Source of the DNA: a virus
IMG/VR virus record: IMGVR_UViG_3300032053_018318
Coordinates: 1-29,515 of that record
Reading direction: 5' to 3' (one strand)
Length of the DNA stretch: 29,515 nt
Positions 7,868 to 29,515 of this stretch are shown piece after piece (the first letter of the stretch is position 1; each line of letters opens with the position of its first letter). A program made the position numbers and the translations under genes. The notes below the pieces were generated by a model. It had not been told where the DNA came from, did not search any database, and worked only from the letters and a program-made list of their open reading frames with translations.

Positions 7868-8998
7868 ATGAGCGAACAACAGAATAGTCCGATCAATCTC
7901 CCGGCCGGCGAGATCCTGGAGGCTTTTCGCCGGGTAAAACAATCCGGTATCACGGTGGTATACGCCGACGCCGGGGAGCGCGGGATTGGTACTACGCAGG
8001 TCTACGTCGCCAGCGGGGGCCAGGCCCTGATCCGTCTGGACGGTCAGGGAACCGCAAAAATGATGGCGGCGGGGCCCTTCGCGGCCGGGGCGACCCTGTA
8101 CCCGGCCGATGACGGCAAGATCGATGATGTCAAAGTGGGTTTACCTCTGGGCAAATCCCTGGAGGCCGCGACGGCGGCCGGCAGTATCATCGAGGTCGTG
8201 CCGGTCATCGATGATGCCTCCTCGGTCTATATCTGGGTCAGTCCCGAGGGCGACGATTCGAGCGGCAATGGTTCCTTCTCGTTGCCCTACGCGACGATCA
8301 CCAAGGCCCTGACGGCCGTGACCACGGTCCGCAAGACGATCCTGGTGCTGCCGGGCGAATATACGGAGACGCTGATGTTGACGTGGCCCTCCATCAGCGG
8401 CGTGAGTATCAATGGCGTCCTGGGTCACGGTGACGGCGCCACGATCGCAGGGACCGCCGGCCAGACGGCCGTGGTCAAGATCGATCCCACGGTCCAAACG
8501 TCGACGTTCGAGGCGACGCTCAGCAACGTGACAATCGCCGCCCCGATCGGTGTGAATGGCATCGATTTCAACAACACCGCGGTCAATCGCAAGATCAACC
8601 TGTACCTGAAGAACGTCCCGATCGAAAACGCGGACACGAATGGCAGTGGGGCCGGCAAATCCCTCAACGTCATCCACGCGAACGCCGCCGAGGCCATGCG
8701 CGTGTACGCGAGCGGCCAGAAGGACATTTGGGAGGGGTTGTTGTATATCGAGCCCAAGAATACCAATGATCGGTTCCAGTTCGGCAACCTCCAATTCGAC
8801 GGGGGTGTGCAATTTGGAACGACCACGATCGCCTCGGTCTCGCGTTTCACGAGCTGCATCGCGGTGGACGACGGGGGCATCGGGGGTCAGGACACCCAAA
8901 TCCTGGCGATCCTGGGCTGCCAAAGTCTGACGGGCACGACCTATGCCGCCGCTGCCCTGGGTGATTTTGCGGACAATGCGGCGGAAGTGGTAGCGTGA
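7868..8998 (+). CDS. Capsid decoration protein fused to a predicted beta-helix domain
   Basis: Residues 1-113 look like a small capsid cement protein: a disordered N-terminus, then VYADAGERGIGTTQVYVASG, and the LPLGKSLEAATAAGSIIEV closing segment that ends many phage decoration proteins. From about residue 119 the sequence changes to YIWVSPEGDDSSGNGS, FSLPYATITKAL and VLPGEYTE, the opening of right-handed parallel beta-helix (pectate-lyase-like, DUF1565-type) repeats, which appear to run to about residue 330. Lambda gpD is only about 110 residues, so the extra 260 residues should project from the capsid surface. The start follows GAAGGAG with good spacing. It lies directly before the major capsid gene, the normal place for a decoration protein. 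No lyase active site can be named by eye. Confidence 0.72.
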   Translation: MSEQQNSPINLPAGEILEAFRRVKQSGITVVYADAGERGIGTTQVYVASGGQALIRLDGQGTAKMMAAGPFAAGATLYPADDGKIDDVKVGLPLGKSLEAATAAGSIIEVVPVIDDASSVYIWVSPEGDDSSGNGSFSLPYATITKALTAVTTVRKTILVLPGEYTETLMLTWPSISGVSINGVLGHGDGATIAGTAGQTAVVKIDPTVQTSTFEATLSNVTIAAPIGVNGIDFNNTAVNRKINLYLKNVPIENADTNGSGAGKSLNVIHANAAEAMRVYASGQKDIWEGLLYIEPKNTNDRFQFGNLQFDGGVQFGTTTIASVSRFTSCIAVDDGGIGGQDTQILAILGCQSLTGTTYAAAALGDFADNAAEVVA

Positions 8999-11790: not shown

Positions 11791-12210
11791 ATGATCGGTA
11801 AAGGCGCGACGCTGACCGGCTCGGTGACGGGTTTGGTCGGCCACATTCGCAATATCAATTTCGAGGGCACCAAGGTCGACAATCTCGACAACACGGACGG
11901 GGACACCCCGGGCTATCACCGGACGTTCGAGCCGGGTCTGATCGATTCCGGCCGGTTCACCTGCGAGGTCCTGTACGACGCGACCTACGCCTGGGGCGTC
12001 CTGACGGCGTTGAAGAACCGCGTGACGGAATGCTGGAAGGTCCAGTTCGCCGACGGCCGCCGCCGGTGGTTCTGGGGCTATCCCGACGATAGTTCGCTCT
12101 CAGGTCCCTACGACGCCCTGGTCAGTTACAATTTCGGCATCAAGATCACCGGGGCGATCACGAGCAGCTCCTCGAGCAGTTTGTCGAGCAGCTCTTCGTC
12201 CTCGGCCTAA
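11791..12210 (+). CDS. Tail tube protein with serine-rich C-terminus
   Basis: The 139-residue product lies just upstream of the tail chaperone, the normal place of the tube protein. It has a beta-rich body: ATLTGSVTGLVGHIRNINFEG at the start, GYHRTFEPGLIDSGRFTCE in the middle and YDALVSYNFGIKITGAI near the end, the pattern of lambda-type tube subunits, in which DSG and a late KITG strand are common. The last 15 residues are a poly-Ser tail broken by one Leu and ending in Ala (12163-12207). AAAGGAG precedes the ATG. At this length it is shorter than lambda gpV, as it lacks the Ig-like domain; the Ser tail replaces it. Confidence 0.75.
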   Translation: MIGKGATLTGSVTGLVGHIRNINFEGTKVDNLDNTDGDTPGYHRTFEPGLIDSGRFTCEVLYDATYAWGVLTALKNRVTECWKVQFADGRRRWFWGYPDDSSLSGPYDALVSYNFGIKITGAITSSSSSSLSSSSSSSA

Positions 12211-12222
12211 ACCTCACGCAGC

Positions 12223-12250
12223 ATAGGAGAAACGAAATAGGAGAAACGAA
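12223..12250 (+). promoter_or_regulatory. Tandemly duplicated ribosome binding site
   Basis: The 14-base unit ATAGGAGAAACGAA occurs twice without a gap, and the chaperone ATG follows one base later. Both copies carry AGGAG, with only the second at a good distance from the ATG. Confidence 0.7.
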
Positions 12251-15140: not shown

Positions 15141-16157
15141 ATGTCCACTTTGCGCGAAAATTGGATCTATGATGGCGCCGCTTATACGGAAGTCGGAGGA
15201 ACGGACTGGCGGGCGCAAAGCTTCCTATGTGGCTATGCGACGCCCTGGCAGGCCTATCAAGTGACATCGATCCAATTGCGGGGCTATGCGTATCAATCTT
15301 CGGGTGATTTTACAGTAGGGATTTATTCGTCCGTGTCGGGAAAACCGGGCTCTTTATTGATTTCCAAAACGGTGTCCAAATCCTCTCTGCCTTCCGGTTC
15401 TTCCAATTGGTTTGAAATCACGTTTGACGATCCCTATCTGTTAACGTTGAACTCCGTTTATCATATCGTCTCCTCGGCCAGTAGTGGAACGGTACGCCTG
15501 CAAGATCAAAATGGTTACAGTGGCGGGTCCTTTGCCTATTCCTCGGATGGAGGAAGTTCTTGGACTGTCAGCGGCACAATTGATATGGTATTTGCAGTTT
15601 GGGGTATCGAGCCGTTTTCATCCTCCTCCAGCTCCAGTAGTTCCTCTTTTTCTTCGTCCAGCTCCTCTTCCTCCTCCAGTCTCAGCAGTTCCTCCTCTTC
15701 GAGTTCGCTGTCCTCCAGTTCGAGTTCGCTATCCTCCAGTTCGAGCAGCAGTTTCAGCGTGGATTTCCCGGTCTTGACCCGGGCCTCCGCCCGCGGTTTT
15801 CCGGCGGAGTTCGTGATCGATCCGGGCGTGGTCACGGCCGCGCTGGGGATCGGCCGGCCCCGGGTGCGCCGGGAATTTCAGGATGCGTTTCGCGGCTGGC
15901 GGGACCAGCGGACGAATTGCAGCGCCGCCGATTACGCCGCCTTCGAGATCTTCTATCGGGAGACCGTTCAACGTAGCGTCCGGCCCTTCCGCTGGCGCAA
16001 TCCCCGCACGCGGGAGCGGGTCGTGGTGCGGTTTTGGTTTCGGGAGCCGCCCCGCTGGCAGCGGGTGGCGGAGCATCAGGTCGAATGGACCGTGGATTTC
16101 ACGCTGGCCGAATGCGCCGGGGCGACGGGGGTTGGGTATGGAGGAGCGGACGCGTGA
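15141..16157 (+). CDS. M-like minor tail protein with N-terminal sandwich domain and poly-Ser linker (copy 1)
   Basis: Three parts are visible in 338 residues. Residues 1-159 look like an all-beta sandwich (WRAQSF, VTSIQLRGYAY, FTVGIYSSVSGKPGS, and SSDGGSSWT near the end), a fold often used for carbohydrate or surface binding. Residues 160-206 are an almost pure Ser linker (15618-15758) with a few Leu and Phe. Residues 207-338 are a compact tail domain containing DYAAFEIFYRETVQRSVRPF, then ERVVVRFWF and a closing VEWTVDFTLAEC. This end resembles lambda gpM or DUF2460 tail proteins, and it directly follows the tape measure, as gpM does. The N-terminal domain is visibly less G+C-rich than its surroundings. 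GAGG precedes the ATG. Function of the sandwich domain is unknown. Confidence 0.66.
   Translation: MSTLRENWIYDGAAYTEVGGTDWRAQSFLCGYATPWQAYQVTSIQLRGYAYQSSGDFTVGIYSSVSGKPGSLLISKTVSKSSLPSGSSNWFEITFDDPYLLTLNSVYHIVSSASSGTVRLQDQNGYSGGSFAYSSDGGSSWTVSGTIDMVFAVWGIEPFSSSSSSSSSSFSSSSSSSSSSLSSSSSSSSLSSSSSSLSSSSSSSFSVDFPVLTRASARGFPAEFVIDPGVVTAALGIGRPRVRREFQDAFRGWRDQRTNCSAADYAAFEIFYRETVQRSVRPFRWRNPRTRERVVVRFWFREPPRWQRVAEHQVEWTVDFTLAECAGATGVGYGGADA
15618..15758 (+). other. Poly-Ser linker tract, 47 codons
   Basis: Nearly every codon is Ser, but TCA, TCC, TCT, TCG, AGC and AGT are mixed rather than repeated, with scattered Leu and Phe. The mix suggests selection for the protein linker rather than mere DNA slippage. 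Confidence 0.95.
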
Positions 16158-16240: not shown

Positions 16241-17086
16241 ATGAAACAGATCCCGGATCTCATCCTGCGGCGGCTGAAGGAGTTGGAGACGTCCGAGCCG
16301 TTCATCTCGCTCTTGGACGTCGCGCTCAATGACCTGGCCGATACGCACATCCGCCTGGCCCGCGACACCCGCCTGATCACGTTCGGCGGGGTCGACTACG
16401 TGCCCGCCGCCTTCGACCTGCAGGTTCTGGGCGTGACCAAGCGGGAGGGGATTCCGCAGTTCGATCTGGCGATCAGCGACGTGGAAGATCGTTTGCGGCC
16501 GGCGTTGTATACGTCGAACTATTTCCAGGGCGCGACCCTGACGATTGCCGTCGTCATGCCGGACGCCCTCTCGCTCGATTACCAGGATCTAGTGACGGAG
16601 TACAGCATTCTCAAGGCGCGCCCGCGGGCCGAATGGGTGTACCTGACGATCGGGGGTCCGGACCTGCTGCGTAAGCGTTTTCCCTGGGGCCGGTTCTTCG
16701 CGGACCTGTGCGAGTACCGGTTCGGGGACGATCCCCGTTGCCCCTATGTCCCCTCGAATATCGTCGCGGTGGACCACTCCGGCTCGGGGCCCGTGACGGT
16801 GACGGTGACGGACCATCCCTTCGAGACCGGGGACGAGGTGACGCTGGCGGGCGGGGCGGGCCTGACGCCGCCCTTGGCGGGCACGTTCGTGGTCACGGAC
16901 ATCGGGGATGACGCGTTCACGCTGGACGATACGAGCGGCGATGATTACACGGGCACGTACTCCGAGAGCGGCACGGCCGCCTTCACGATCTGCGAGCGGA
17001 ACCTGGACGCCTGCCGCAAGCGGGCGGCGACGCTGCATTTCTGGGGCTGCGTGGGTCTCCGCAACCGGGTGTCCCGTTTGGCTTGA
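16241..17086 (+). CDS. Minor tail protein L-like (iron-sulphur type) with an inserted beta module
   Basis: A 281-residue protein with the gpL pattern: an N-terminal beta domain (LITFGGVDYVPAAFDL, then GIPQFDLAISDVEDRL), and a C-terminal part with Cys157 and Cys167 (LCEYRFGDDPRCPY) and Cys251 and Cys258 (ICERNLDACRKRA). In lambda gpL four such cysteines bind an Fe-S cluster at the tail tip. Between the two cysteine pairs a module of about 78 residues is inserted (171-248: IVAVDHSGSGPVTVTVTDHP...), resembling the small FCCH-like beta modules of phage tail proteins. Lambda gpL is about 232 residues, so the insert explains the extra length. ATG 16241 follows the heptamer spacer. The stop overlaps the upstream end of the next reading frame. 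Confidence 0.8.
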   Translation: MKQIPDLILRRLKELETSEPFISLLDVALNDLADTHIRLARDTRLITFGGVDYVPAAFDLQVLGVTKREGIPQFDLAISDVEDRLRPALYTSNYFQGATLTIAVVMPDALSLDYQDLVTEYSILKARPRAEWVYLTIGGPDLLRKRFPWGRFFADLCEYRFGDDPRCPYVPSNIVAVDHSGSGPVTVTVTDHPFETGDEVTLAGGAGLTPPLAGTFVVTDIGDDAFTLDDTSGDDYTGTYSESGTAAFTICERNLDACRKRAATLHFWGCVGLRNRVSRLA

Positions 17087-17088
17087 AA

Positions 17089-20000
17089 ATGATACATCAA
17101 ACGTCAAACGTCAAACGTCAAACTTCCGGCAATTGCTGGCGGCTCGTGCAGGAGACGCGGCGGGCGGCCGGATTGCCGATGCCGGATCAGGCCACGTGGC
17201 TGACGGCCCTGGTTCGCAACTCGGCCCCGGCGGTCCGGTTCGTCCGTCTCGCCGCCCCGCAGCTCTACGCCATCGTCGCGCTCAAAACCGGGGAATACGT
17301 CACGCATCTCGGCGTCGTGCTGTCCCCGCGGGAGTTTCTCCATGACGGCGGCGCCGGGCCCCAGGTGGAACGGATCGAAGTGTGGATCCCCCGGATCGAG
17401 GGTTTCTACGAGTTCGGCGATTGGCCGCTCCCGCCTGCTGGGTATCCGATCGCGGCGGTGGGGGCGCCGGGGTCCCTGGTGATCCTCACGAATCCTCTGA
17501 CCGGCGCCTGCCGCACGGCGTGGGGGGATGCCCAGGGCGGCAGTGTGGCCCAGTGGCTGGCCCGGGAGGATGTGCCGGCGGGGGCGGTCTGTCTCTTGAA
17601 TGGGACGCCGTTGTCTCCCGAACATTGGTCCTATCGGCCCGGTCCCCGGGATCGGCTGCAGGTCCTGATCCCGATCGGCAACAATAATCAGATGCTGGGC
17701 ATCATGCTGATGGTGATGCTGGCCGTAGTCTCTTATGGCGTCGGGGCCTACGTCGGCGGGGCCGCCGGCCTAGGGATGGGCGCGGGCTGGGGGGCGGCGG
17801 CCAGTGCCGGAATCATGATCGGTGGCTCGCTGCTGCTCAATGCCCTGCTCGCCCCCGGCGTCCCGGATACCACCAAAGACGAAGTGAAATCGCAATGGGG
17901 CGAGCAGACGGTCCAGGCCCAGGGGGGGGCGGTCCCCAAAATCTATGGGGACGTCCGAGTCCACGGCAACATCATCGCCCACTACAGCGAGCAACTCGGG
18001 GTGGAAGTGCACGGCGGCTTCCTAGCGCGCATGCCGGAGGAACATATCCGCAACGTCCTGGTGTGTTTCGGTGAAGATCCGGTGGAAGGTTTCGACGAGT
18101 CGTCACTGCGGATCAACGATGTGGCGATTGCGGAGCTGCCCGGCGTGGCGGTCGAATACCGGCGGGGACTCCTCGATCAGACGGCGACGAGTAAATTCGC
18201 CACGGAGACCCCGATCGAGTTCTTTGCCGGATACGTGCTCGACTATGAGACGAACACCCGGACGTACACCCTGCCGGGCGTCGGCTATGATGACGCCGAG
18301 GTGACGGTTCTATTCACGAATGGTTTATGGTCGCTGGATCAAAAAAAAGGAACGATGAAATGGCAGGTTTCCACCCTCAAGGTCGAGGCGGGGGACGCGT
18401 TGACGGATACCTGGCAAACCATTCTGTATCGGACGGAGACTCACAACAACACCAACCCCGTGCGCTTCAATTACCGCGCCAGCGGCTGGGTGTACCCCGG
18501 ATTACCGGGGAAACAACACTATATAGGCGGTGCGATTTTCACGATCACGCGGGCGATGCAGCCCCGTTTTCGGGTTACGCGGATCGATCCGGCCTATCAG
18601 GGGATCAGTTGGGGCGGCGACTGCATGATCGCGGAGGTCCGGGGGATCTTGAATGAGGTCTTCGAGCATCCCGGCAAGGTCCTGTTGCAGATCAGCGCCC
18701 TGCCCTCGAAGATGCTCTCCGGCTCCCTCGACGTCAGCATCGTGGTGAACGGTTCCATCCTGCAGCGGTGGGACGGCGCCGCCTGGGTGCTGGACGCGGT
18801 CAAGTCGCGAAACCCGGCCTGGATCGATTATGACATCCTGACCTATCCCCTGATCAGCGGCGATGGCGATGGAACGCCCTACGCCGTCGCGAAGTACCGG
18901 GGCGTCGATCCCGCCGACCTCGATGTGGCGGGTTTCCTGGCGACGGAGACGCTGGCGGATGGTCAAGTCCCCGACGGCCAGGGCGGCGCTGGGCTGGAGA
19001 ATCGGATCGAGATCGGTACGGTCTTCGGGGAGACGAGCAACGCCTACGACGCGGTCCGGCGGATCGGCGTGACGGGCCGGGCGGGTCTCGATCTGCGGGG
19101 CAATCGGGTAGGACTCTGGTGTGACCGGGCCCGCGTGCCGGTGGGCCTGTTCGGCGACGGCAATTGGCTCAAGGACTCCTGGGAGCCGGACCCGATCCCG
19201 CAGGCGGACCGGGCGGCGGAACTGGAGATCGTCTATTATGACCGGGACAACGGGGACGAGCAGACGCCGATCTTAGTGCCGGATCTGGACATCGACACGA
19301 CGAATCGCTCCTCGATCGATTGCGCGTGCACCCGGCGGCGGAGCGAGGCCTGGCGGACGGGCCGGTACAACCTCGCCCGCAATCGCCTGCTGGATCTCGC
19401 GGGCAAGTTCTCGACGGATATTGACGGGATCATTTACGAGCCGGGCGACGTGCTGTACCTCCAGTTGCCGGGCCGGTCCTGGGGCGGACGCCTGGCGGCG
19501 GTGGATTCCGGCGCGGGTACGGTCACCCTGGATCAAGACGTCCAGACGTCCGCGAATGACGTTCTGATCGTCCAGGTCCGCGATTCGGTGACGGGCGTCC
19601 AGGCGGCCGGATATCGGATCGTGGCCTCGCGCGCCGGGCGCGTGGTGACGTTCAGCGGCGCCTGGGTTTTCCCGGCGGGCGTGACGGCGGCGGCGGCCCC
19701 GGACGATCCGTACCTATTCGGCCCGGCCGCCATCCTGGCGGACACCTTCGAGGTCCTGGAGGTCCGGCCGCAGGCGCATCTGCAATTCGAGTTCTCCGTC
19801 CTGCGTTACGCGGGCGGCGTCTATACGGTCGATGACGAGGAGTCGGGCCTGTCGATCGATTCCGGCTTGGCGGTAGATCCTATCCCGGCCGGGCCGCCGC
19901 GGCCCCCGACGGCGGCGGCCATCGCGGGCTATTTGCCGCCCGGAATCCAGACTTCAGGACGGGCCCCGGAAATCGAAATCCTCGGACTCGACGTAACGGG

Positions 20001-20664
20001 CGACGCCGCCACGACGATCTATTGGGACGCGGGGCTGATCACGATTGGCGCCTCGGAATATGAGATCGCCGCCGGGTCCACGACGGATGAATACGTATGG
20101 TTCGATCCGGGGGCTCCGGACCCTCTGACCCTGAAGACCGGCGCGGTTTGGGGTGGCGCCGGCACGTACAAGATGTTCGCCAACCAGGCCGGGCGGCCCG
20201 ATCCATTCTATGCGCCGTTGGCGGCGCTGGGGATCGAGATTTCGGGTCTGGGCGTGACGGGGGACGGCGACGATACGATCGATTGGCTGGCGGGGCAGAT
20301 TTCCTATCGCGGGCACGATTATTCGATCGGCGCGGGGTCCACGACGGATAAATACGTCTGGTTCGATCCGGAGGCCGCCGATCCTTTGACGCTGAAGACC
20401 GGCGCCGCGTGGCCGGAGGACCCGGATATCTACAAGATGTTCATCAATACGGCCGGCGCGGCGACGGGACTCTACGGCCAGGCCTCGGCCACGGAGCCGG
20501 TGACCGTGGTAGACAGCACGTCGCTCGATCTGACGGTCGCCGGTCAGCAGATCAGCGGGACCGTACTGCCGGGCGGCGGGTTTATCGACGTGACGTTCGA
20601 CGGCGGGACCTCGAACGTAGGGCTGGACACGGATTTCAGTTTCGATGCGGGGTATAGTCTATGA
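17089..20664 (+). CDS. Giant tail-tip hub: NlpC/P60 peptidase (K), I-like and J-like parts in one chain
   Basis: One 1191-residue product replaces lambda K, I and J. Residues 1-110 look like a K-type NlpC/P60 cell-wall peptidase: Cys16 in GNCWRLVQETRR, His73 in THLGVVL and His85 in FLHDGG as the probable triad. Residues about 145-196 match the ubiquitin-like part of gpI (SVAQWLAREDVP, LLNGTPLSPEHW), followed by a Gly/Ala-rich hydrophobic stretch (201-255). From about 280 (GGAVPKIYGDVRVHGN) the J hub begins, with domains typical of the central tail tip through about residue 940. The C-terminus has two tandem repeats (19969-20190 and 20230-20457) and a beta-rich end. A TTG at 17083 is also in frame. 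The start region is a heptamer tract, so the exact N-terminus is uncertain. Stop overlaps the fibre gene start (ATGA). Confidence 0.83.
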   Translation: MIHQTSNVKRQTSGNCWRLVQETRRAAGLPMPDQATWLTALVRNSAPAVRFVRLAAPQLYAIVALKTGEYVTHLGVVLSPREFLHDGGAGPQVERIEVWIPRIEGFYEFGDWPLPPAGYPIAAVGAPGSLVILTNPLTGACRTAWGDAQGGSVAQWLAREDVPAGAVCLLNGTPLSPEHWSYRPGPRDRLQVLIPIGNNNQMLGIMLMVMLAVVSYGVGAYVGGAAGLGMGAGWGAAASAGIMIGGSLLLNALLAPGVPDTTKDEVKSQWGEQTVQAQGGAVPKIYGDVRVHGNIIAHYSEQLGVEVHGGFLARMPEEHIRNVLVCFGEDPVEGFDESSLRINDVAIAELPGVAVEYRRGLLDQTATSKFATETPIEFFAGYVLDYETNTRTYTLPGVGYDDAEVTVLFTNGLWSLDQKKGTMKWQVSTLKVEAGDALTDTWQTILYRTETHNNTNPVRFNYRASGWVYPGLPGKQHYIGGAIFTITRAMQPRFRVTRIDPAYQGISWGGDCMIAEVRGILNEVFEHPGKVLLQISALPSKMLSGSLDVSIVVNGSILQRWDGAAWVLDAVKSRNPAWIDYDILTYPLISGDGDGTPYAVAKYRGVDPADLDVAGFLATETLADGQVPDGQGGAGLENRIEIGTVFGETSNAYDAVRRIGVTGRAGLDLRGNRVGLWCDRARVPVGLFGDGNWLKDSWEPDPIPQADRAAELEIVYYDRDNGDEQTPILVPDLDIDTTNRSSIDCACTRRRSEAWRTGRYNLARNRLLDLAGKFSTDIDGIIYEPGDVLYLQLPGRSWGGRLAAVDSGAGTVTLDQDVQTSANDVLIVQVRDSVTGVQAAGYRIVASRAGRVVTFSGAWVFPAGVTAAAAPDDPYLFGPAAILADTFEVLEVRPQAHLQFEFSVLRYAGGVYTVDDEESGLSIDSGLAVDPIPAGPPRPPTAAAIAGYLPPGIQTSGRAPEIEILGLDVTGDAATTIYWDAGLITIGASEYEIAAGSTTDEYVWFDPGAPDPLTLKTGAVWGGAGTYKMFANQAGRPDPFYAPLAALGIEISGLGVTGDGDDTIDWLAGQISYRGHDYSIGAGSTTDKYVWFDPEAADPLTLKTGAAWPEDPDIYKMFINTAGAATGLYGQASATEPVTVVDSTSLDLTVAGQQISGTVLPGGGFIDVTFDGGTSNVGLDTDFSFDAGYSL
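17098..17125 (+). repeat. Heptamer tandem repeat at the start of the hub gene
   Basis: CAAACGT occurs three times followed by CAAACTT, in perfect 7-base steps. It is translated as the N-terminal linker just before the catalytic-Cys motif of the peptidase. Confidence 0.9.
19969..20457 (+). repeat. Two tandem protein repeats at the hub C-terminus
   Basis: Two units start 261 bases (87 residues) apart. Both contain EI.GL.VTGD, AGSTTD.YVWFDP, DPLTLKTGA and a KMF.N.AG ending. They may be surface-exposed binding modules at the tail tip. Confidence 0.85.
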
Positions 20665-22916
20665 GCACGCGCTGGCAATGCAAACGGGATACGGCGGCGA
20701 ATTGGACCTCGAATAATCCAGTCCTCCTGTCCGGGGAATGGGGTGTGGAAACGGATACGAAGAAATTGAAGATGGGAGACGGCGCCACCGCGTGGAACGG
20801 TCTCGCCTATGATTTCTCACCACAGAACAACGTGGCGATCACCGGCGGCTCCATCACGGGGATCACCGATCTGGCCGTGGCGGACGGCGGCACGGGGGCC
20901 TCGACGCTGACGGATCACGGCATTCTCCTGGGATCGGGCACGGCCGCCGTGACGCCTCTGGCGGCCGCGACGAATGGGCAGATCCCGATCGGCAGCACGG
21001 GGGCCGATCCGGTCCTGGCCACGATTGCCGGCACGGCGGATGAGGTGGACGTCAGCGTCGGGGCCGGGACGATCACGATTGGCCTGGTGAATCCCCTGAT
21101 CGCGGGCAAAGGCGGCACGGGGGCCTCGACGCTGACGGATCACGGCATTCTCCTGGGATCGGGCACGGACGCCGTGACGCCTCTGGCGGCCGCGACGAAT
21201 GGGCAGATCCCGATCGGCAGCACGGGGGCCGATCCGGTCCTGGCCACGATTGCCGGCACGGCGGATGAGGTGGACGTCAGCGTCGGGGCCGGGACGATCA
21301 CGATTGGCCTGGTGAATCCCCTGATCGCGGGCAAAGGCGGCACGGGGGCCTCGACGCTGACGGATCACGGCATTCTCCTGGGATCGGGCACGGACGCCGT
21401 GACGCCTCTGGCGGCCGCGACGAATGGGCAGATCCCGATCGGCAGCACGGGGGCCGATCCGGTCCTGGCCACGATTGCCGGCACGGCCAATCAAATTGTC
21501 GTGACCAACGGGGCCGGGACCAGCACGATCGGGACTCCGTTACTCGCCGGGAATGAGCCGGTACGACAGGTGATTCACGGTGGGGTGGCGACCATCCATG
21601 CCGGCAACAACGGGTTGGGGCAGAGTCGCCCGCCAAATTCCAAGATCACCCAAAGCGCCGCGATTGCCGGGACACGAACCACGGCCCAAATCTTCACCCG
21701 CACGACGGGAACGTGGACCGCAGATGTCTTGATTGCTCAATATGCCTTCTTCTACGCGGCCGCGGTCCCGCACACGGGGAATTGGTTGCCCATCGTGGAT
21801 AATGACGGTACTACTTTGACCGTGACCGGGACGATCCTGGCCGCCGCGGACACCGTCAAGACGTGTGTTTGGACTCCGATTCAACGGTCCTACGCGCACG
21901 GCCAGGGGGCCGCTGCTTTCATCGGGGGTTTCTTTGACGGTCAAAACGGGTGGCTGGTGCCATACAATTCCACCAATCTGGTCAAAGTCAATCCGGCCGA
22001 CGGCACGATGACTGCCTACGCGCACGGCCAGGGGGCCGGTGCCTTCGCCGGGGGTTTCTTTGACGGTCAAAACGGGTGGCTGGTGCCCTTGAATTCCACC
22101 AATCTGGTCAAAGTCAATCCGGCCGACGGCACGATGACTGCCTATGCGCACGGCCAGGGGGCCGGTGCCTTCATGGGGGGTTTCTTCGACGGTCAAAACG
22201 GGTGGCTGGTGCCATACAATTCCACCAATCTGGTCAAAGTCAATCCGGCCGACGGCACGATGACTGCCTATGCGCACGGCCAGGGGGCCGATGCCTTCAT
22301 GGGGGGTTTCTTCGACGGTCAAAACGGGTGGCTGGTGCCATACAATTCCACCAATCTGGTCAAAGTCAATCCGGCTGATGGGACGATGACCTCCTATGCC
22401 CACGGCCAGGGGGCCGGTGCCTTCATGGGGGGTTTCTTCGACGGTCAAAACGGGTGGCTGGTGCCAAGAAATTCCACCTATTTAGTCAAAGTCAATCCGG
22501 CTGATGGGACGATGACCTCCTATGCGCACGGCCAAGGGAGTGGTGCCTTCATCGGAGGTTTTTTCGACGGTCAAAATGGGTGGCTGGTGCCCTTCAGTTC
22601 CTATAACATAACCAAGGTCAACCCGGCCGACGGCAGCATGACCTTCTACGCGCACGGCCAGACGGCCGCTGCGTTCCAGGGAGGTTTCTTTGACGGTCAA
22701 AACGGGTGGTTGGTGCCCAGCCGCACTACCGCTAACCTAATTCTTTTCTCGCCCATCGGTTTTGGAATAATAGGCACTCCAAACGCGGGGGGTGTGACAT
22801 CTCTATTGACCTTGGATGATGGGGCCAACTGGCGGATCACAATGAATTTCGTCGGCGGAATTCTGACCGCTAAAACTACCGCCGCGTCAAGTGGGCAATG
22901 TGCAACTTGGTCTTAA
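20661..22916 (+). CDS. Tail fibre with repeat shaft and seven-unit beta-propeller
   Basis: Predicted receptor-contact fibre of 751 residues. The N-terminus (WQCKRDTAANWTSNN, LLSGEWGVETDTKKLKMGDG, AWNGLAYDF) is the attachment module shared by many phage fibres, which often continues, as here, into GGTGAST repeats. Residues 76-275 comprise two complete 75-residue units and part of a third (20886-21487). After a spacer, seven units of 42 residues (from 21891, period 126 bases) each carry YAHGQG, GGFFDGQNGWLVP, NLVKVNPADGTMT or close variants. A 42-residue blade repeated seven times fits an NHL/YVTN-type seven-bladed propeller. The remaining tail is short and beta-rich. The ATG overlaps the hub stop (ATGA). 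Receptor binding is an inference from position and architecture. Confidence 0.85.
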   Translation: MSTRWQCKRDTAANWTSNNPVLLSGEWGVETDTKKLKMGDGATAWNGLAYDFSPQNNVAITGGSITGITDLAVADGGTGASTLTDHGILLGSGTAAVTPLAAATNGQIPIGSTGADPVLATIAGTADEVDVSVGAGTITIGLVNPLIAGKGGTGASTLTDHGILLGSGTDAVTPLAAATNGQIPIGSTGADPVLATIAGTADEVDVSVGAGTITIGLVNPLIAGKGGTGASTLTDHGILLGSGTDAVTPLAAATNGQIPIGSTGADPVLATIAGTANQIVVTNGAGTSTIGTPLLAGNEPVRQVIHGGVATIHAGNNGLGQSRPPNSKITQSAAIAGTRTTAQIFTRTTGTWTADVLIAQYAFFYAAAVPHTGNWLPIVDNDGTTLTVTGTILAAADTVKTCVWTPIQRSYAHGQGAAAFIGGFFDGQNGWLVPYNSTNLVKVNPADGTMTAYAHGQGAGAFAGGFFDGQNGWLVPLNSTNLVKVNPADGTMTAYAHGQGAGAFMGGFFDGQNGWLVPYNSTNLVKVNPADGTMTAYAHGQGADAFMGGFFDGQNGWLVPYNSTNLVKVNPADGTMTSYAHGQGAGAFMGGFFDGQNGWLVPRNSTYLVKVNPADGTMTSYAHGQGSGAFIGGFFDGQNGWLVPFSSYNITKVNPADGSMTFYAHGQTAAAFQGGFFDGQNGWLVPSRTTANLILFSPIGFGIIGTPNAGGVTSLLTLDDGANWRITMNFVGGILTAKTTAASSGQCATWS
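20886..21487 (+). repeat. 225-bp repeats, two full and one partial copy
   Basis: Units begin at 20886, 21111 and 21336, all in frame (75 codons). They are nearly identical, with single-base differences such as GCC to GAC in the GTAAVT/GTDAVT segment. The third copy breaks off near 21487. Confidence 0.95.
21891..22772 (+). repeat. Seven 126-bp repeats encoding propeller blades
   Basis: Units begin at 21891, 22017, 22143, 22269, 22395, 22521 and 22647, exactly 126 bases apart. The middle units are almost identical in DNA, while units 6 and 7 diverge. Differences cluster in the positions after GWLVP. Confidence 0.93.
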
Positions 22917-22917
22917 A

Positions 22918-23838
22918 ATGAGCACGAAACGCGAATACTACGAAGAGACCGAGGACACGTTCACGTCCGTGACGGGATCGACCTGGAAGGCCCAGGCTTT
23001 CACCGTGGGTCAGATCTCCGGGGATTCCTATCTGCTCGATGGGGTCTATCTCTATGGGGCGGCGGCGGAGGCGGCGGGCAATCTTGTCATCGAGATCCAG
23101 ACGAACTCCGGCGCCGATCAGCCCTCGGGCACGGTTTTGGCCACGCTCACGGTCGCGAAAGCGAATCTCCTAGTGGACGGATGGCACGTGGCGATCGTCC
23201 CGGTTCCCTTCGCGGTCAGTGAAAACGATGTTCTGCACCTCGTGGCGCACGTGACGGCGGGAACGTTTTATTGGCGGATGCGGCAGACGGAGCCTCTCTA
23301 TACTCGGGGCGGCGCCTGCACGTCCGGCGACGGCGGCGTGACTTGGACCGGCCCGGCGGCGACGGCGGACCGCAAGTTCCAGATCTGGGGTTCCCCGTTG
23401 TCTTCTTCTTCGTCGAGCATCTCCTCTTCCTCCAGCTCGCTCTCCAGTTCCAGCAGCTCCAGTGGGGGAGCCGAGAGCATCCCGGTTTTCCCCACCCTGG
23501 GCCGCGCGGAGGCGCCGGGTTCGCCCCAGCAGCAGATGGCGGCGGACGGCACGGTGCACGCCCTGCTGGGCGAGGGGTCGCTGGCGGCTCGGGCGGATTT
23601 GACCCACCGGAGGTCGTGGACCTGCGCGATCCACTTGCTGACCCTGGCGGATTACGCTAGTTTTCAGACCTTTTATTACACAACGGTCCACCGTTCGGTG
23701 CGGGCGTTCTGGTGGACGAATCGGGCCAATGGAGAACGGGTCCTGGTCCGCTTCAGTCCCGCGGCCCCGCCGCAGTGGCGCCCGGTGGAGAATACGAAAG
23801 AACGGTGGGACTTGGAATTTTCTTTGATCGAGGCTTGA
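22918..23838 (+). CDS. M-like minor tail protein with N-terminal sandwich domain and poly-Ser linker (copy 2)
   Basis: A 306-residue paralogue of the protein at 15141-16157. Both start MST.RE, share W.AQ.F, a GVYLYG-type strand, and an SGDGGVTWT/SSDGGSSWT segment followed by an FQIWG-type ending in the N-terminal beta domain. A 21-codon poly-Ser linker follows (23401-23463). The C-terminal domain keeps LADYASFQTFYYTTVHRSVRAF, ERVLVRF and a final LEFSLIEA, parallel to the first copy. The ATG lies one base after the fibre stop; a GTG at 22891 is in frame but lies inside the fibre gene. The second copy sits after the fibre rather than beside the tape measure, so it may serve a fibre-linked role. 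Confidence 0.66.
   Translation: MSTKREYYEETEDTFTSVTGSTWKAQAFTVGQISGDSYLLDGVYLYGAAAEAAGNLVIEIQTNSGADQPSGTVLATLTVAKANLLVDGWHVAIVPVPFAVSENDVLHLVAHVTAGTFYWRMRQTEPLYTRGGACTSGDGGVTWTGPAATADRKFQIWGSPLSSSSSSISSSSSSLSSSSSSSGGAESIPVFPTLGRAEAPGSPQQQMAADGTVHALLGEGSLAARADLTHRRSWTCAIHLLTLADYASFQTFYYTTVHRSVRAFWWTNRANGERVLVRFSPAAPPQWRPVENTKERWDLEFSLIEA
23401..23463 (+). other. Poly-Ser linker tract, 21 codons
   Basis: Mixed Ser codons with one Ile and one Leu separate the sandwich domain from the M-like domain, at the same place in the protein as the tract at 15618-15758. Confidence 0.93.
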
Positions 23839-23902: not shown

Positions 23903-24508
23903 ATGGCAACGGTGATCGATTACGAGGTCCTTCGGCGGCAATCCCACGGCCGCCTGGCGGTCGAGGATATGCAGCTCCTGGAGCGGGCCTGTGCGGTGTG
24001 CTCGGCCCGGACGATCTTGGAGATCGGGGCGGCGGACGGCGGTTCCTCGGTGATCCTGGCGGCCCAGGCGGCAAAGAGGGCCGGGCGCCTCTATTCCATT
24101 GAGGGCAATCCCAAGGCCGGCATGATGGCGAATCTGGCGGTCTATGGTTTGCAGGACCGGTGCACCTTGCTGCCCGCCTGGTCGCCCTGGCTGGGTCCGT
24201 TGGAGCAAGAGATCCCTCCCGTGATCGATCTACTCTTCATCGACGGGCGACATGATATTCGCTGGTGCCTGATGGACTATCACTATTGGCAGCCGCGGGT
24301 CCGGCCGGGCGGCGTGATCGTGTTCCACGACACGGGAGGCATGTGCCGTGAGGACCGGGCCCAGACGGACTTCGGTTCCCCCGGCTACCTCCCCTTGGTC
24401 CGCCGCGCCATCGCCCTGATTCTCGCGACGGACCTCTTGGTCCAGATCGACGCCAGTGACGGTCGCGACGGCGGGGCCATCGCCTATCGCAAAGGAGTCG
24501 CCCTATGA
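23903..24508 (+). CDS. Class I SAM methyltransferase, Methyltransf_24-like (first)
   Basis: A 201-residue product. Motif I is visible as ILEIGAADGGSS (residues about 38-49), the acidic SAM-ribose residue is Glu in YSIEGNPK, and IDLLFIDGRHDIRWCLMDY leads to PGGVIVFHD. These are the hallmarks of Methyltransf_24-type enzymes that often lie in polysaccharide and glycopeptide clusters. AAGGAG at 23890-23895 is seven bases before the ATG. The stop overlaps the next ATG. Substrate unknown; a sugar or glycan O-methyl acceptor is likely from the neighbours. Confidence 0.85.
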   Translation: MATVIDYEVLRRQSHGRLAVEDMQLLERACAVCSARTILEIGAADGGSSVILAAQAAKRAGRLYSIEGNPKAGMMANLAVYGLQDRCTLLPAWSPWLGPLEQEIPPVIDLLFIDGRHDIRWCLMDYHYWQPRVRPGGVIVFHDTGGMCREDRAQTDFGSPGYLPLVRRAIALILATDLLVQIDASDGRDGGAIAYRKGVAL

Positions 24509-25104
24509 TCGGCGGTTTTCCGGAGCTGAGGGAATGGGTGACGAAAGTAGTGCACCCCCAGGATGGAGGCAAATTCCGCACCCGCGCCTTTCATTCGTAT
24601 TACCGGCAAAAGTATTTGATCGCCGCGCTCTTCTCGCCCGCCACGATCGCGGAGATCGGGGTCCGCTGGGGCTATTCGGCGTGGTCGTTTTTGCGGGCGT
24701 GCCCCCGGGCGGAGTATACCGGTTTCGACTTCCAACGGGGTACGCATGGGGGCGTCAAGGGCGTGAATACCTTCGATTGGTGCACGGAGATTCTCGGCCG
24801 CGATTATCCGGCGGCCGACGTCGAACTGTGCCTGGCCGATACGCAGACCTTGACGTCACTGGGCGGACCTTACGATCTGATCCACGTGGACGGCGACCAC
24901 AACGAGCGCGGCTGCCGCCACGATCTGGAGCTCGCATGGGGGGCAACGGCTCCCGGGGGAGTGATCCTGGTGGATGACTATGATTACATTCCTGGCGTCC
25001 GTGGGGCGGTCAAGGATTTTTGTCGTGGCCTGAGCCGGAACGAGGCCGGGCAGATGGCGGTCCCGTCCCTGCGGGGCGATTACCTGATCCGAAAGGGCGG
25101 CTGA
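24505..25104 (+). CDS. Class I SAM methyltransferase, Methyltransf_24-like (second)
   Basis: A 199-residue product of the same broad family but quite different in sequence. It has IAEIGVRWGYSAWSFL as motif I, YTGFDFQRG for the acidic ribose residue, and YDLIHVDGDHNERGCRHDLE followed by PGGVILVDDYDY. The HVDGDH and DDY acidic residues are a likely metal site, as in related O-methyltransferases. AAAGGAG upstream lies inside the first methyltransferase gene, and the ATG forms an ATGA overlap. Its stop overlaps the next ATG by a base (TGATG). Substrate unknown. Confidence 0.85.
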   Translation: MIGGFPELREWVTKVVHPQDGGKFRTRAFHSYYRQKYLIAALFSPATIAEIGVRWGYSAWSFLRACPRAEYTGFDFQRGTHGGVKGVNTFDWCTEILGRDYPAADVELCLADTQTLTSLGGPYDLIHVDGDHNERGCRHDLELAWGATAPGGVILVDDYDYIPGVRGAVKDFCRGLSRNEAGQMAVPSLRGDYLIRKGG

Positions 25105-25817
25105 TGGAACTGTATTTTTTCTGCGCGGTGGATGAGAACCCCGTCTATCGGCATGAGGCCGATCTCCTGATCGAATCGGGGCGGGTCTTCGGCCGCGAAA
25201 TCCACCTCTACGACATTCCCGCCCCGGAGATCTGGAACCGGTACAAGGTGAATCTCTTCCTGGCGGACCTGCCGCCGGCCGACCGGTACATCTACCTGGA
25301 CGGCGATTGCGCCTTGACCGGCCCCGGCGACTGGGAAGCCCAGGACGGCATCGGCGTTTGCGATGTGCTCTACTACTGCAACGCCTATGACCGCGCCCGT
25401 CACACCAAGGGCTTTATGAGGAATCATACGCTGCTCGTCGGCGAGCAGCGGGGCTATGACTACGTGGCCCAACTCTATCTCGAACGGGGCCAGCCGCCCT
25501 GGTGCAATTCCGGCGTGGTGGTCCTGCCGGCGGAGGATCGTCTGCCGTTCGCCCGGCTGTGGAAGGACTGGATGAATCGAATCGACGCCGAGTGCGAGAA
25601 GGGCTTCATGGTGGGCGATGAGGCCGCCCTGCTATTCGCGCGGCAGGAATATAGCCTGCCCTTACTGCCGCCGAGATTCAACGGGATGTGCAAATGGCAG
25701 CCGATCTTCGATTGGCATGTTTTGATCCACGCCGACGGCAACGTCGGCGGTCCGAAACGGCAACCCTATCTGGACGCCCTCCAACGCGTCCAAAACCTAA
25801 AGGAGAAACGGACATGA
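25104..25817 (+). CDS. GT-A fold glycosyltransferase, GT8-like
   Basis: The 237-residue product begins MELYFFCAVDENPVYRHEAD and contains RYIYLDGDCALTGP, in which Asp-Gly-Asp is the metal-binding DxD motif of GT-A enzymes. WCNSGVVVLPAED and GDEAALLFARQ follow, as in GT8-type transferases, and HADGNVGGPKR near the end replaces the usual late His motif. The gene starts one base inside the preceding stop and ends in ATGA with the epimerase gene; the latter's ribosome site lies in its last codons. Probably adds a sugar to a glycan or protein, acceptor unknown. Confidence 0.76.
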   Translation: MELYFFCAVDENPVYRHEADLLIESGRVFGREIHLYDIPAPEIWNRYKVNLFLADLPPADRYIYLDGDCALTGPGDWEAQDGIGVCDVLYYCNAYDRARHTKGFMRNHTLLVGEQRGYDYVAQLYLERGQPPWCNSGVVVLPAEDRLPFARLWKDWMNRIDAECEKGFMVGDEAALLFARQEYSLPLLPPRFNGMCKWQPIFDWHVLIHADGNVGGPKRQPYLDALQRVQNLKEKRT

Positions 25818-26695
25818 AAGTTCTGGTGCTCGGCGGCGCGGGCTTCATCGGCCGCCATTGCTGTGATTTGCTGATGGCGCAGGGCCACGTGGTGACGGCC
25901 TTCGATCCGGCCCCGTTGGAGCTGCCGGCCCCGCATGCCGGCGTGCGCGGGGACGTCCGGGATGCCACGGCCGTGCAATGCTACGTCGCCCAGCACGACG
26001 TCGTGATTCATCTGGCCGGCATTCTCGGCACGGCGGAGACCGTGGATCGGCCCGGGCCGTCCGTCGAGGTCAACATTCTGGGCGCCCTGAACGTCTTCGA
26101 GGCGGTCCGTCACGAGGGCAAGAGAACGGTGACGATCACGGTGGGAAACCACTTCATGCTGAATAGCTATTCGATTACGAAAAGCTGCGCGGAGCGGCTG
26201 GCGCTGATGTACAATCGCGAGCATGGGACGCGGATCGCGGTCGTGCGCGGTCTCAATGCCTATGGACCCAACCAGAAGGCCCGGCCGGTCCGTAAGGTGA
26301 TGCCGAACTTCATTCTCTCCGCCTTGCGGGGCGAGGATCTGACGATCTACGGGGAAGGTGATCAGATCATGGATTTCATCTACGTCCGCGATCTGGCGGC
26401 GATTCTATTAAGGGCGGTATTCTTCAATCACGAAACCTATGACCAAATCTTCGAGGCGGGCAGCGGCCGGCGCACGACGATCAATGAGATTGCCGCGGCC
26501 GTCATCACCCAGACCGGTTCCCGCTCCCGGATCGTTCATCGTCCGATGCGGCCCGGCGAGACCGCACATAGTGTAGTGCTGGCGGACGTGGAGAGTTTGG
26601 GGCCTCTGGGAGTGGACGTGGCGGGGATGATCTCCCTCGCGGATGGCCTCGGCCTGACAATCCCCTGGTATCGTCAGCATCAAATGGAACTTTGA
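25814..26695 (+). CDS. NAD-dependent sugar epimerase/dehydratase (extended SDR)
   Basis: A 293-residue nucleotide-sugar enzyme. The dinucleotide-binding motif GGAGFIG is at residues 7-13, and the catalytic Tyr-x3-Lys occurs in SYSITK. FNHETYDQIFEAGSG and DFIYVRDLAAILL fit the late motifs of the UDP-glucose-4-epimerase/4,6-dehydratase group. Ribosome site AAAGGAG lies in the end of the previous gene, 8 bases before the ATG. It probably supplies a modified sugar donor to the neighbouring glycosyltransferases. The exact reaction cannot be read from sequence alone. Confidence 0.92.
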   Translation: MKVLVLGGAGFIGRHCCDLLMAQGHVVTAFDPAPLELPAPHAGVRGDVRDATAVQCYVAQHDVVIHLAGILGTAETVDRPGPSVEVNILGALNVFEAVRHEGKRTVTITVGNHFMLNSYSITKSCAERLALMYNREHGTRIAVVRGLNAYGPNQKARPVRKVMPNFILSALRGEDLTIYGEGDQIMDFIYVRDLAAILLRAVFFNHETYDQIFEAGSGRRTTINEIAAAVITQTGSRSRIVHRPMRPGETAHSVVLADVESLGPLGVDVAGMISLADGLGLTIPWYRQHQMEL

Positions 26696-26709
26696 GGCCC
26701 TGCGCCCCG

Positions 26710-27444
26710 ATGGAATCGGAAATCGGAAATCATCGATCATCGAAAATCTTCCGGGCCCCGCTCTGGCGCGGTGAGTTCGGCTGGGAGGTAATGACCTGGG
26801 CCCCCTGGTGGCGGGCCCGGAGCCGCGCGGGGCCGGTGGCGATTACTGGTTTTGCGGACAGCCGGGCCTTATACGTCGACTTCGCCCGGGAGTTTCACGA
26901 CCACGGCGAGACGCGGCGCACGTTGGACTATCCGAAGGGTTTCGATCAGTATCACAGCGACGGTCCCGGTTTCGAGCATTACGAGTACGGTGATCCGGAC
27001 CGGGCGGAGCCGTTCGACGTTTTGATCCACGCCCGCGGCATCGCCCGTAAGCGCAGCATCAATTACCGCCATTGGGACACGATGAGCCTTTGTCTCCTGA
27101 GTCTCAAGTGCGCCTCGATCGGCACACTCCAGGACCAACTCGTGCCCGGCACGAGGGACCTGCGGGGTCTGCCGCTGGAGAACCTGATGGATCTCTGCGC
27201 GGCGGCGGATGTCACACTCGGATGCAGCTCGGGGGTGATGCACCTGGCGGCCGCCTGCGGCGGCAATCTGGTCGTCTGGGGCGATACGAAGACCAGATAT
27301 CGCGAGACACTGGAAAGGAGATATCGGGAGACGTGGAACCCGCACCACGTGCGGGTCGCCTGGCTCGACGCCGACGATTGGCAGCCGCCGGCCCACCGGG
27401 TGGTGGCGGCCCTCGAAGAAATTGCCAGCCGCACGATGGGTTGA
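26710..27444 (+). CDS. GT9-like glycosyltransferase
   Basis: A 244-residue product from the ATG at 26710; a TTG at 26692 overlaps the previous stop and is possible. The first dozen residues are coded by a heptamer tract and may not be native. FRAPLWRGEFGWEVMTWAPW opens the protein proper. CAAADVTLGCSSGVMHLAAA then CGGNLVVWGD is the nucleotide-sugar-binding end of GT9 (heptosyltransferase-type) enzymes. It is shorter than typical GT9 proteins (about 320-350), so the N-terminal half may be reduced. No good ribosome site is visible. Its neighbour is a longer GT9-containing fusion. Confidence 0.62.
   Translation: MESEIGNHRSSKIFRAPLWRGEFGWEVMTWAPWWRARSRAGPVAITGFADSRALYVDFAREFHDHGETRRTLDYPKGFDQYHSDGPGFEHYEYGDPDRAEPFDVLIHARGIARKRSINYRHWDTMSLCLLSLKCASIGTLQDQLVPGTRDLRGLPLENLMDLCAAADVTLGCSSGVMHLAAACGGNLVVWGDTKTRYRETLERRYRETWNPHHVRVAWLDADDWQPPAHRVVAALEEIASRTMG
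26713..26747 (+). repeat. Heptamer-period tract in the GT9-like gene start
   Basis: GAATCGG, AAATCGG, AAATCAT, CGATCAT and CGAAAAT run in 7-base steps immediately after the ATG at 26710, so the tract is translated if that start is used. Confidence 0.7.
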
Positions 27445-27451
27445 AGGGATT

Positions 27452-27470
27452 ATTCCCGGATTCCGGGAAT
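27452..27470 (+). other. Perfect 8-bp hairpin between glycosyltransferase genes
   Basis: ATTCCCGG and CCGGGAAT pair around an ATT loop, 8 bases before the ribosome site of the next gene. No T run follows, so it is more likely to affect messenger stability or translation than termination. Confidence 0.5.
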
Positions 27471-27493
27471 TCGAGAACAAGGAGAAAAACGGC

Positions 27494-29515
27494 ATGCAGT
27501 TCATCGAAACGATTGACGTGGCGTCCCCCTTACGGGTCATGTTGAAGAATCATCAGGAGCTGCTCGGGGACCGGATGGGGATGACCTCCCTGGTCCGGGA
27601 TCTGAAAGCGACGTATCCGCACTGGCAGATTTACGTGGCGGTGGCGAATGACGAGGTCTGGCGCAACAATCCGCACGTGGCGGGGATCGTCCTGCCGGGC
27701 GCTCCGGACCCCGAGAAGGTCGATCTGGCGGTGGACGTGGGCCCCTTCCGCGCGACCCAGGCGAGCAGGGGCAATGGGGTGCATTTCATGCGGGCCTGGA
27801 ATTACGGCTTCATCCGGGCCACGGGTCTGCCGGTCCACGCTGGTCCCATGAGGGCCGATCTCCACCTGTCTCCCGAGGAGTTGTCGTACCAACCCGTGGC
27901 GGGCCGTTATTGGGTTTTCAATGCGGACACGAACAACATGGGATCCAAGCGTTGGCCCGCCGCGCGGTGGCGGGAGGTGCTTCGGTCGCTGCCGGGAATC
28001 CGGTTCGTCCAGGTGGGACTGGCGAAAGATCGGCTCGAGGATTACGGCGACGAGCCGAACGTCATGAGCCTGGTCGGCCGGACGGACGTGAGGCAGTTGT
28101 TCGCCCTGGTGGCGCACGCGGAGGGTTGCGTCAGCCTGATCAGCTCCCTGATGCACGTGGCCGGGGCGTTCGACAAGCCCTGCGTGGTCCTGGCCGGCGG
28201 CCGGGAACCGGCGACGTTCGAGCAGTACCCGGCCCATTATTTCATCAGCCGCGTCGGGATGCTCGACTGTTGCCGGGACCTCGCCTGTTGGAAAAACTCG
28301 ATCACGGCCTGCCGGGACCGGGTCGAGACGCCCGCCGGTCCCATCGCCCGGTGTATGATGACGATCTCTCCGGCGGACGTCCGGCGGGGGATCGAGCTGT
28401 ATTACGAGGGAGGGCGATTTCCGGTCGATGCGAAAGTGGAACCATCGCCTGGCGCACGCGCGCCAACCGATCCATCGCGATTGCCGGTGGGATCGCCGGC
28501 GCAGGTTCTGCGGATCGTCACGAACGGCAAATGCTTTGGCGGCGCGGAGCGGTCCTGCCTGGAGATCGCCCGGATGTTCCGGGCGCGGGACTGGCAGGTG
28601 GAGATCGCGACCCGGCAACCGATGTGTTTCGAGATGGCGGCGGCGTTCGATCCATTCGCGGTGCGGACGGACCGGGTCTCCTCGCCCTGTGACGTATTGC
28701 TCTGGTATGCCAGCGACCAGGTCTACGATGCCCACCTGCCCGAGTTCGAGCCTCTCGCCCACGCCCAGGCATCCAGGAAGATCATGGCGCTGACCTATAA
28801 GATCGGCAAGGCGCCAGAGTTGCCCTGGTGCCGGGACTGGGATCAATATCTATTCCTGTCCGCCGCTTTGCGGGATTCGTTCGCCGAGAGAATGAAATCA
28901 CCGGGGGAGGATCAGGTGTCCAACGGGGTTTCGTTCGCGGAAGAACCGGATGCGCCCGATGAGGAATTTCCCCGGATGCGGGTTCTCGCTCCCCCGGTTG
29001 ATTTGTTTCCCTTCCTGGCGGTCCAACCGAATTACGCTCTTCCGGTCCGCGTCATCCGCCATAGTTCGCAGGGTGACGACAAATGGCGGCGCGAGACGGG
29101 AAGGTTGCTCGATGCCTGTCCCGGCGCCGAATTTTGGTTCATGCCGTGCCCCAGTTGGTTGCCATCTGGGAGAAATCTTCATCGTTTTAATTGTGGCGCC
29201 CTACCGGTTCCGGAATTCCTCGCGCGGGGCAATCTGTTTCTCTACCTAGTCCCGGATGATTACACGGATCAGGGTCCGCGCGTCGTGGTGGAGGCGATGG
29301 CGGCGGGTCTACCGGTGATCTGCCAGCGCCGGGATGGTTGCGCGGTCCGGGTGAAGCGGGAGACGGGTTGGTTCGTCCGGACGGAAACTGAGGCGGCGAC
29401 GATCATCAACTGCGTCGTGCCCGAGGTGCTCGCGGCGCTAGGGGAAGCCGCGCGCCACCGGGCCCGCGTGGAGTTCGATCCGTGGAAATGGTACGCCGCG
29501 ATCGCGGGGGACTGA
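27494..29515 (+). CDS. Two-domain glycosyltransferase (GT9-like plus GT4-like)
   Basis: A 673-residue fusion. Residues 1-310 form a GT9-like half with LLGDRMGMTSLVRDLKATYP, IRFVQVGLAKDR, SLISSLMHVAGAFDKPCVVL and a cysteine-rich end (CC at 259-260, Cys265, 273, 287). After a Pro-rich linker (about 311-337) a second half begins: VLRIVTNGKCFGGAERSCLE is the start of a GT4 enzyme, and GPRVVVEAMAAGLPVICQ near residue 594 is its donor-binding E-x7-E-type region. AAGGAG at 27479-27484 precedes the ATG. The chain ends on TGA, the final three bases of the window. One protein would catalyse two sugar additions. Confidence 0.85.
   Translation: MQFIETIDVASPLRVMLKNHQELLGDRMGMTSLVRDLKATYPHWQIYVAVANDEVWRNNPHVAGIVLPGAPDPEKVDLAVDVGPFRATQASRGNGVHFMRAWNYGFIRATGLPVHAGPMRADLHLSPEELSYQPVAGRYWVFNADTNNMGSKRWPAARWREVLRSLPGIRFVQVGLAKDRLEDYGDEPNVMSLVGRTDVRQLFALVAHAEGCVSLISSLMHVAGAFDKPCVVLAGGREPATFEQYPAHYFISRVGMLDCCRDLACWKNSITACRDRVETPAGPIARCMMTISPADVRRGIELYYEGGRFPVDAKVEPSPGARAPTDPSRLPVGSPAQVLRIVTNGKCFGGAERSCLEIARMFRARDWQVEIATRQPMCFEMAAAFDPFAVRTDRVSSPCDVLLWYASDQVYDAHLPEFEPLAHAQASRKIMALTYKIGKAPELPWCRDWDQYLFLSAALRDSFAERMKSPGEDQVSNGVSFAEEPDAPDEEFPRMRVLAPPVDLFPFLAVQPNYALPVRVIRHSSQGDDKWRRETGRLLDACPGAEFWFMPCPSWLPSGRNLHRFNCGALPVPEFLARGNLFLYLVPDDYTDQGPRVVVEAMAAGLPVICQRRDGCAVRVKRETGWFVRTETEAATIINCVVPEVLAALGEAARHRARVEFDPWKWYAAIAGD

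Follow-up and report, generated by a model that had tools for sequence, protein, structure and literature searches.

A cassette of glycosyltransferases and methyltransferases that may O-glycosylate poly-serine virion proteins of an uncultured phage

Introduction

A few actinobacteriophages are known to glycosylate their virions with enzymes encoded in their own genomes. The genome of an uncultured phage, IMG/VR record IMGVR_UViG_3300032053_018318 (29,515 bases, one strand, 5' to 3', analysed whole and referred to here as the window), raises the question of what a phage modifies with sugar and methyl genes of its own. The window holds a siphovirus-like structural module, terminase through tail, followed by a cassette of such genes, and several of its structural proteins carry runs of serine (poly-Ser). 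Gene content, homology and co-occurrence together make it probable that the cassette serves specifically to O-glycosylate poly-Ser tags carried by the virion proteins of this phage.

A six-gene cassette downstream of the tail genes

An earlier sequence-only reading described a six-gene sugar and methyl cassette following the tail genes. All six genes are found there, on the + strand at 23903-29515, in one compact operon; the gene calls stood apart from small start corrections, with the GT9-like enzyme now at 26710 and the fusion at 27494.

23903..24508, + strand: MT1, a Methyltransf_24 SAM methyltransferase (PF13578, 1.1e-18), conserved in relatives
24505..25104, + strand: MT2, a second Methyltransf_24 methyltransferase (PF13578, 1.6e-15)
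25104..25817, + strand: GT-A fold glycosyltransferase, DxD type (AF2 mean pLDDT 87.5; Foldseek)
25814..26695, + strand: SDR nucleotide-sugar epimerase/dehydratase, YxxxK (PF01370, 1.9e-41; phrog_540, 2.7e-49)
26710..27444, + strand: small GT9-like enzyme with a GEFGWEVM motif (PF01075, weak, 2.9e-4; aligned with eight relatives)
27494..29515, + strand: GT9-GT4 fusion glycosyltransferase, 673 aa (PF01075, 7.6e-13, then PF13692, 8.7e-6/PF00534)

The genes are joined by ATGA/TGATG overlaps or else separated by short gaps, as had been noticed earlier; the gaps measure 14 and 49 nt. Also as noticed, they follow the phage's own ribosome-site style: GGAGAAACG is common to MT1, the epimerase and structural gene 12252, and the site of the fusion is GGAGAAAAACG, a variant of the style seen at that structural gene. 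Ahead of gene 12252, at 12223-12250, the ribosome-site segment ATAGGAGAAACGAA occurs twice in exact tandem.

The GT-A protein has no Pfam match, and its assignment comes from an AF2 model of good confidence that shows a GT-A fold and a DGD motif and whose Foldseek matches include UGGT, LARGE1, LgtC and blood-group glycosyltransferases (E 2.5e-6 and up). The GT4 half of the fusion matches GT4 structures with Z about 24. Against 50,697 phage records, megablast of the window gave no match, nor did tblastn of the GT9-like enzyme, the fusion or the GT-A protein, and MT1 gave a single match (29%, an uncultured megaphage). Genome scans for cellular relatives returned no GT-A relative and only generic, weak GT9 matches in MAGs.

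The record begins with ATG and ends with TGA, apparently trimmed at gene boundaries. This raised the possibility that the cassette is host sequence left at one end of a trimmed provirus, a reading rejected because relatives have more poly-Ser virion-type genes beyond the cassette. The cassette is linked to virion genes on both sides: it stands behind the tail genes, and in contig L030 a 1154-aa poly-Ser protein begins right behind the fusion, which places the cassette inside the virion gene module. Since the window record stops exactly at the fusion stop codon, an equivalent large poly-Ser gene may have been cut off. Two relatives encode very large poly-Ser proteins (up to 1154 aa) shortly after the cassette, at 14814-18275 in L030 and at 16134-17033 in L032.

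Poly-serine stretches in structural proteins

Three poly-Ser stretches of about 14, 46 and 21 codons are present in structural proteins of the window, close to the 14, 47 and 21 mixed codons counted before. Together with a head cement-like protein, the carriers are as follows.

7868..8998, + strand: head cement-like protein with a DUF1565 beta-helix region (PF09956, weak, 0.021; PF07602, 9e-8)
11791..12210, + strand: major tail tube protein with a C-terminal poly-Ser tag at 12163-12207 (phrog_158, 6e-7; PF16460, 1e-4)
15141..16157, + strand: tail-module protein with a poly-Ser linker of ~46 residues at 15618-15755 (phrog_384, virion structural protein, 3e-5)
22918..23838, + strand: paralogue of the 15141 protein with a 21-residue poly-Ser linker at 23401-23463 (phrog_384, 0.012)

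The stretches are not simple DNA repeats, because five or six kinds of serine codon are mixed within them; imperfect 21-nt repeats occur in parts of two stretches only. Mixed codons and conservation together rule out chance or simple DNA repeats as their origin. The 22918 and 15141 proteins are about 34% identical. C-terminal poly-Ser is also found on the tail tube homologues of L019, L032 and L033, and a frequent tag ending is poly-Ser followed by A, GA or GGA at the end of the protein.

The cement protein differs between close relatives. In L007 and L008, which are 98-99% identical over most genes, the cement N-terminal domain is followed by ~100 serines and not by the DUF1565 beta-helix; the L007 counterpart matches PF09956 at 1.1e-5. 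A domain swap thus separates the window protein (7868-8998, DUF1565) from its counterparts in L007 (1263-2306) and L008 (~100 serines), and both relatives also have a second cement-like ORF at the swapped domain. The tail fibre (20661-22916) starts with Mtd_N and contains two large arrays of tandem repeats, one of 225 bp x 2.7 (20886-21487) and one of 126 bp x 6.6 (21889-22717), in which it differs from near-identical L007.

Co-occurrence of the cassette with poly-serine proteins

The sequence-only reading had proposed examining related phages for co-occurrence of poly-Ser proteins and the cassette, whose absence would have refuted virion glycosylation. Strong co-occurrence is seen from three sides, starting from the cassette, from tail protein J and from a poly-Ser pattern blind to the cassette.

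Relatives of the cassette were gathered by scans with the fusion, GT-A, GT9 and MT1. Every relative that matches the cassette strongly and has enough sequence in view carries one to five poly-Ser ORFs. All six genes and poly-Ser virion proteins are present in L001/L012 (71% identity) and in L006, L029, L030, L032 and L033 (~30% J identity), with the gene order reshuffled in some relatives. In L019 and L023 the cassette is reduced to MT1, GT9 and the fusion, and poly-Ser is still present. The exceptions are short fragments (L034, L024, L025) and the distant-homologue contigs L036/L037, which encode a distant GT9 and two Methyltransf_24 homologues and have no poly-Ser ORF in 14 kb; the acceptor of their enzymes may be something other than poly-Ser.

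The second comparison covered 80 J homologues, 3 with cassette genes and 77 without. Poly-Ser ORFs occur on 3/3 of the cassette-bearing contigs and on 1/77 of the others (p=5e-5), a comparison that is weak on its own because the J tree was built quickly and leaves forks open, and because a single acquisition may underlie the cassette bearers. The single case without the cassette is L044, a fragment of 7.6 kb, and its J is grouped with the J of the cassette bearer L006. Among J loci of at least 10 kb the counts are 1/1 for cassette bearers and 0/59 for the rest. In the J tree L045 is nested among the cassette bearers; the 16.7 kb of it that were read contain no poly-Ser, and its entire 44-kb record lacks a GT9 domain. 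In the window, the listed J start (17083-17130) falls within TCAAACG heptamer repeats at 17097-17123, and the true start is probably further downstream; similar short repeats lie at 7285-7318.

The third comparison, which took no account of the cassette, used a DNA pattern in which TCN and AGY codons alternate. It yielded 120 stretches, which were divided by whether an ORF contained true poly-Ser, and whole records were searched with the fusion profile. A GT9 domain was found in 14/49 poly-Ser viral records and in 0/50 of the hits without real poly-Ser (p=1.8e-5), and the counts for 14-100 kb records only are 9/28 and 0/26 (p=0.002); all p values of this search are optimistic and the counts not fully independent, because some records are related to each other. 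In the first batch, a profile of the GT9 half alone recovered the same eight records as the fusion profile. Other cassette-type domains follow the same trend, with Methyltransf_24 in 8/25 poly-Ser records (1/25 of the others) and PF00534 in 6/25 (0/25). The GT9 gene also lies close to the poly-Ser genes: among seven near-complete records, five have a distance to a poly-Ser ORF of 0, 97, 752, 939 or 1427 bp, and across all seven it is shorter than under random placement (permutation p=0.004). In an unrelated phage group (L132, L151, L182 and L196), several structural-looking proteins end in poly-Ser followed by ESS, TST or ESA, and the L151 record additionally has a GT9-Methyltransf_24 fusion.

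The GT9 half of the fusion and TibC

The GT9 half of the fusion is the candidate enzyme for attaching the first sugar to serine.

27494..28438, + strand: GT9 half of the fusion (profile A9: 1psw, 4.5e-10; TibC, 4.2e-5)
28268..28354, + strand: invariant cysteine motif C259, C265-W266, C287 (alignments A8, A9)

The GT9 halves of 15 divergent sequences share few invariant residues, among them a GD pair (G25, D26), a lysine (K152, aligned with TibC Lys-230) and the C...CW...C motif. This motif occupies the position of the TibC iron finger. TibC glycosylates serine, not threonine, and requires four iron-binding cysteines (PMC4358343). The phage halves have three invariant cysteines and others less fixed (including C273, present in many members), in the right place but with a spacing unlike that of TibC's four. 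At TibC Arg-286 and Trp-305 the profile has no identical aligned residue: position 305 holds a different residue, mostly His, and a conserved Arg stands two positions off Arg-286. The donor sugar of the GT9 half therefore probably differs from TibC's. TIGR04414 is matched weakly by 3/15 members (best 1.2e-5), and the window's GT9 half is absent among the matches listed. AF2 modelled the GT9 half with low confidence, and TibC is not among the structure matches listed for the fusion model, a list filled by the GT4 half. Fold matches to GtfC, Gtf3, XcOGT and SdgB were set aside as evidence, being generic GT-B matches. We read the GT9 half as working like a TibC-type protein glycosyltransferase, on the basis of its profile and motif, and do not file it as a BAHT member.

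GT9 enzymes are, for the most part, LPS heptosyltransferases, the window enzymes match those models, and phage serotype conversion is an established phenomenon. The cassette could accordingly modify the host envelope (LPS or capsule) and exclude other phages, with poly-Ser stretches as flexible linkers and the association a product of shared hosts or habitats. In the profile of the GT9 half, however, the match to LPS heptosyltransferase structures runs to about residue 240 and ends before the cysteine motif, which is shared with TibC-type protein glycosyltransferases, whereas the match to TibC continues through the cysteine region to residue 300. The NCBIfam equivalog cut-offs for LPS heptosyltransferases (RfaC/RfaF) were missed, the best score being 30 bits vs 134-569. 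Moreover, the cassette contains no membrane flippase, acyltransferase or polymerase, and envelope modification leaves unexplained both the co-occurrence with poly-Ser and the closeness of the genes in unrelated phages. We regard it as unlikely.

Proposed mechanism

Poly-Ser might instead be modified by other phage or host enzymes, the cassette acting on another virion part such as tail fibres and the serines serving as spacers. Most poly-Ser records have no GT9 domain in view (it is present in 29% of them, and many of these records are fragments), and their serine runs possibly depend on other enzymes or have pure linker roles. L035 is a case in point: of the cassette genes, only MT1 and a distant homologue of GT-A accompany its poly-Ser, and its record lacks a GT9 domain. 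Such a division of labour is nevertheless improbable, as the GT9 domain adjoins poly-Ser genes across three architectures (GT9 alone, GT9-MT24 and GT9-GT4). Glycosylation of phage DNA through hypermodified bases, suggested by the fact that phage glycosyltransferases often act on DNA (PMC12619734), is very improbable, since it predicts no poly-Ser link, the partial window gives no hint of modified-base synthesis, Methyltransf_24 is a general small-molecule/sugar family and the PHROG 'DNA methyltransferase' labels of the cassette methyltransferases are short partial matches.

Under the favoured O-glycosylation of virion proteins, the cassette would be a late operon of the structural module that builds an O-glycan on poly-Ser tags. 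The stretches would be disordered, exposed acceptors, placed as C-terminal tails on two abundant proteins, those of the tail tube and the head cement, and as linkers in tail-module proteins. The GT9 domain of the fusion would attach the first sugar to serines, much as the iron-finger enzyme TibC does. Chain extension would fall to the GT4, small GT9 and GT-A enzymes, the epimerase would supply the nucleotide sugar, and the two methyltransferases would cap or modify the sugars. All steps would take place in the cytoplasm during assembly, which fits the lack of clear membrane segments in any cassette enzyme. We infer serine as the acceptor, the enzyme order, the donor sugars and the purpose from gene content, order, conservation, co-occurrence, proximity and homology, which the sequences themselves show. 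The glycan may shield the particle from recognition, whether by antibodies, predators or proteins of the host surface, or may serve to control or tune adsorption. The earlier suggestion that the phage may sugar-coat its own tail gains support from the co-occurrence and from the kinship of the GT9 half to serine glycosyltransferases; its restriction to the tail is given up, as the proposed acceptors extend to the head cement protein.

On balance, the data lean towards a widespread, hitherto undescribed system in diverse uncultivated phages, in which portable C-terminal poly-Ser tags on abundant virion proteins and a phage-specific cysteine-finger GT9 family, occurring singly or in fusion with GT4 or methyltransferase domains, produce a self-made glycan coat. 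If so, a poly-Ser tag together with a cysteine-finger GT9 gene would be a signature marking uncultured phages with glycan-coated particles, the role of poly-Ser runs in phage structural proteins would be explained, and the pair would offer a testable acceptor and enzyme for protein O-glycosylation on simple serine runs.

Comparison with known systems

In the largely open-access literature consulted, no account was found of poly-Ser tags that accept glycans in phages, and we know of no such tags in glycosylated mycobacteriophages. In the latter, methyltransferases reportedly also take part in the decoration. Capsid and tail tube proteins of mycobacteriophages are reported to bear glycans at their C-termini (PMC12619734, PMC13313380, citing Freeman 2023). 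The window phage resembles these phages in its phage-encoded glycosyltransferases and in the C-termini concerned, its own glycan being predicted from genes. It differs in its predicted poly-Ser acceptor and in its enzymes, three of which have no match in the phage record collection, with MT1 having the one 29% match.

Glycosylation of Ser-rich repeat adhesins (GtfA/GtfB, Gtf3, GtfC; SdgB in Staphylococcus) likewise pairs a disordered Ser-rich protein with adjacent dedicated glycosyltransferases, including GT4-fold enzymes. Its acceptors, however, are adhesins that bacteria secrete with the help of an accessory secretion system and not parts of a virion, and the fold match between its enzymes and the fusion is of the generic GT-B kind.

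A parallel in enzyme type is the BAHT family (TibC/AAH), GT9-type enzymes with a cysteine finger after the catalytic core that hyperglycosylate protein serines. Unlike these, the phage domain frequently occurs in fusion with GT4 or MT24 domains; it also departs from them at the Arg-286 and Trp-305 positions and in its few, weak TIGR04414 matches. The acceptor of a BAHT is the autotransporter passenger encoded by the adjacent gene, whereas the neighbours of the phage domain are phage virion proteins.
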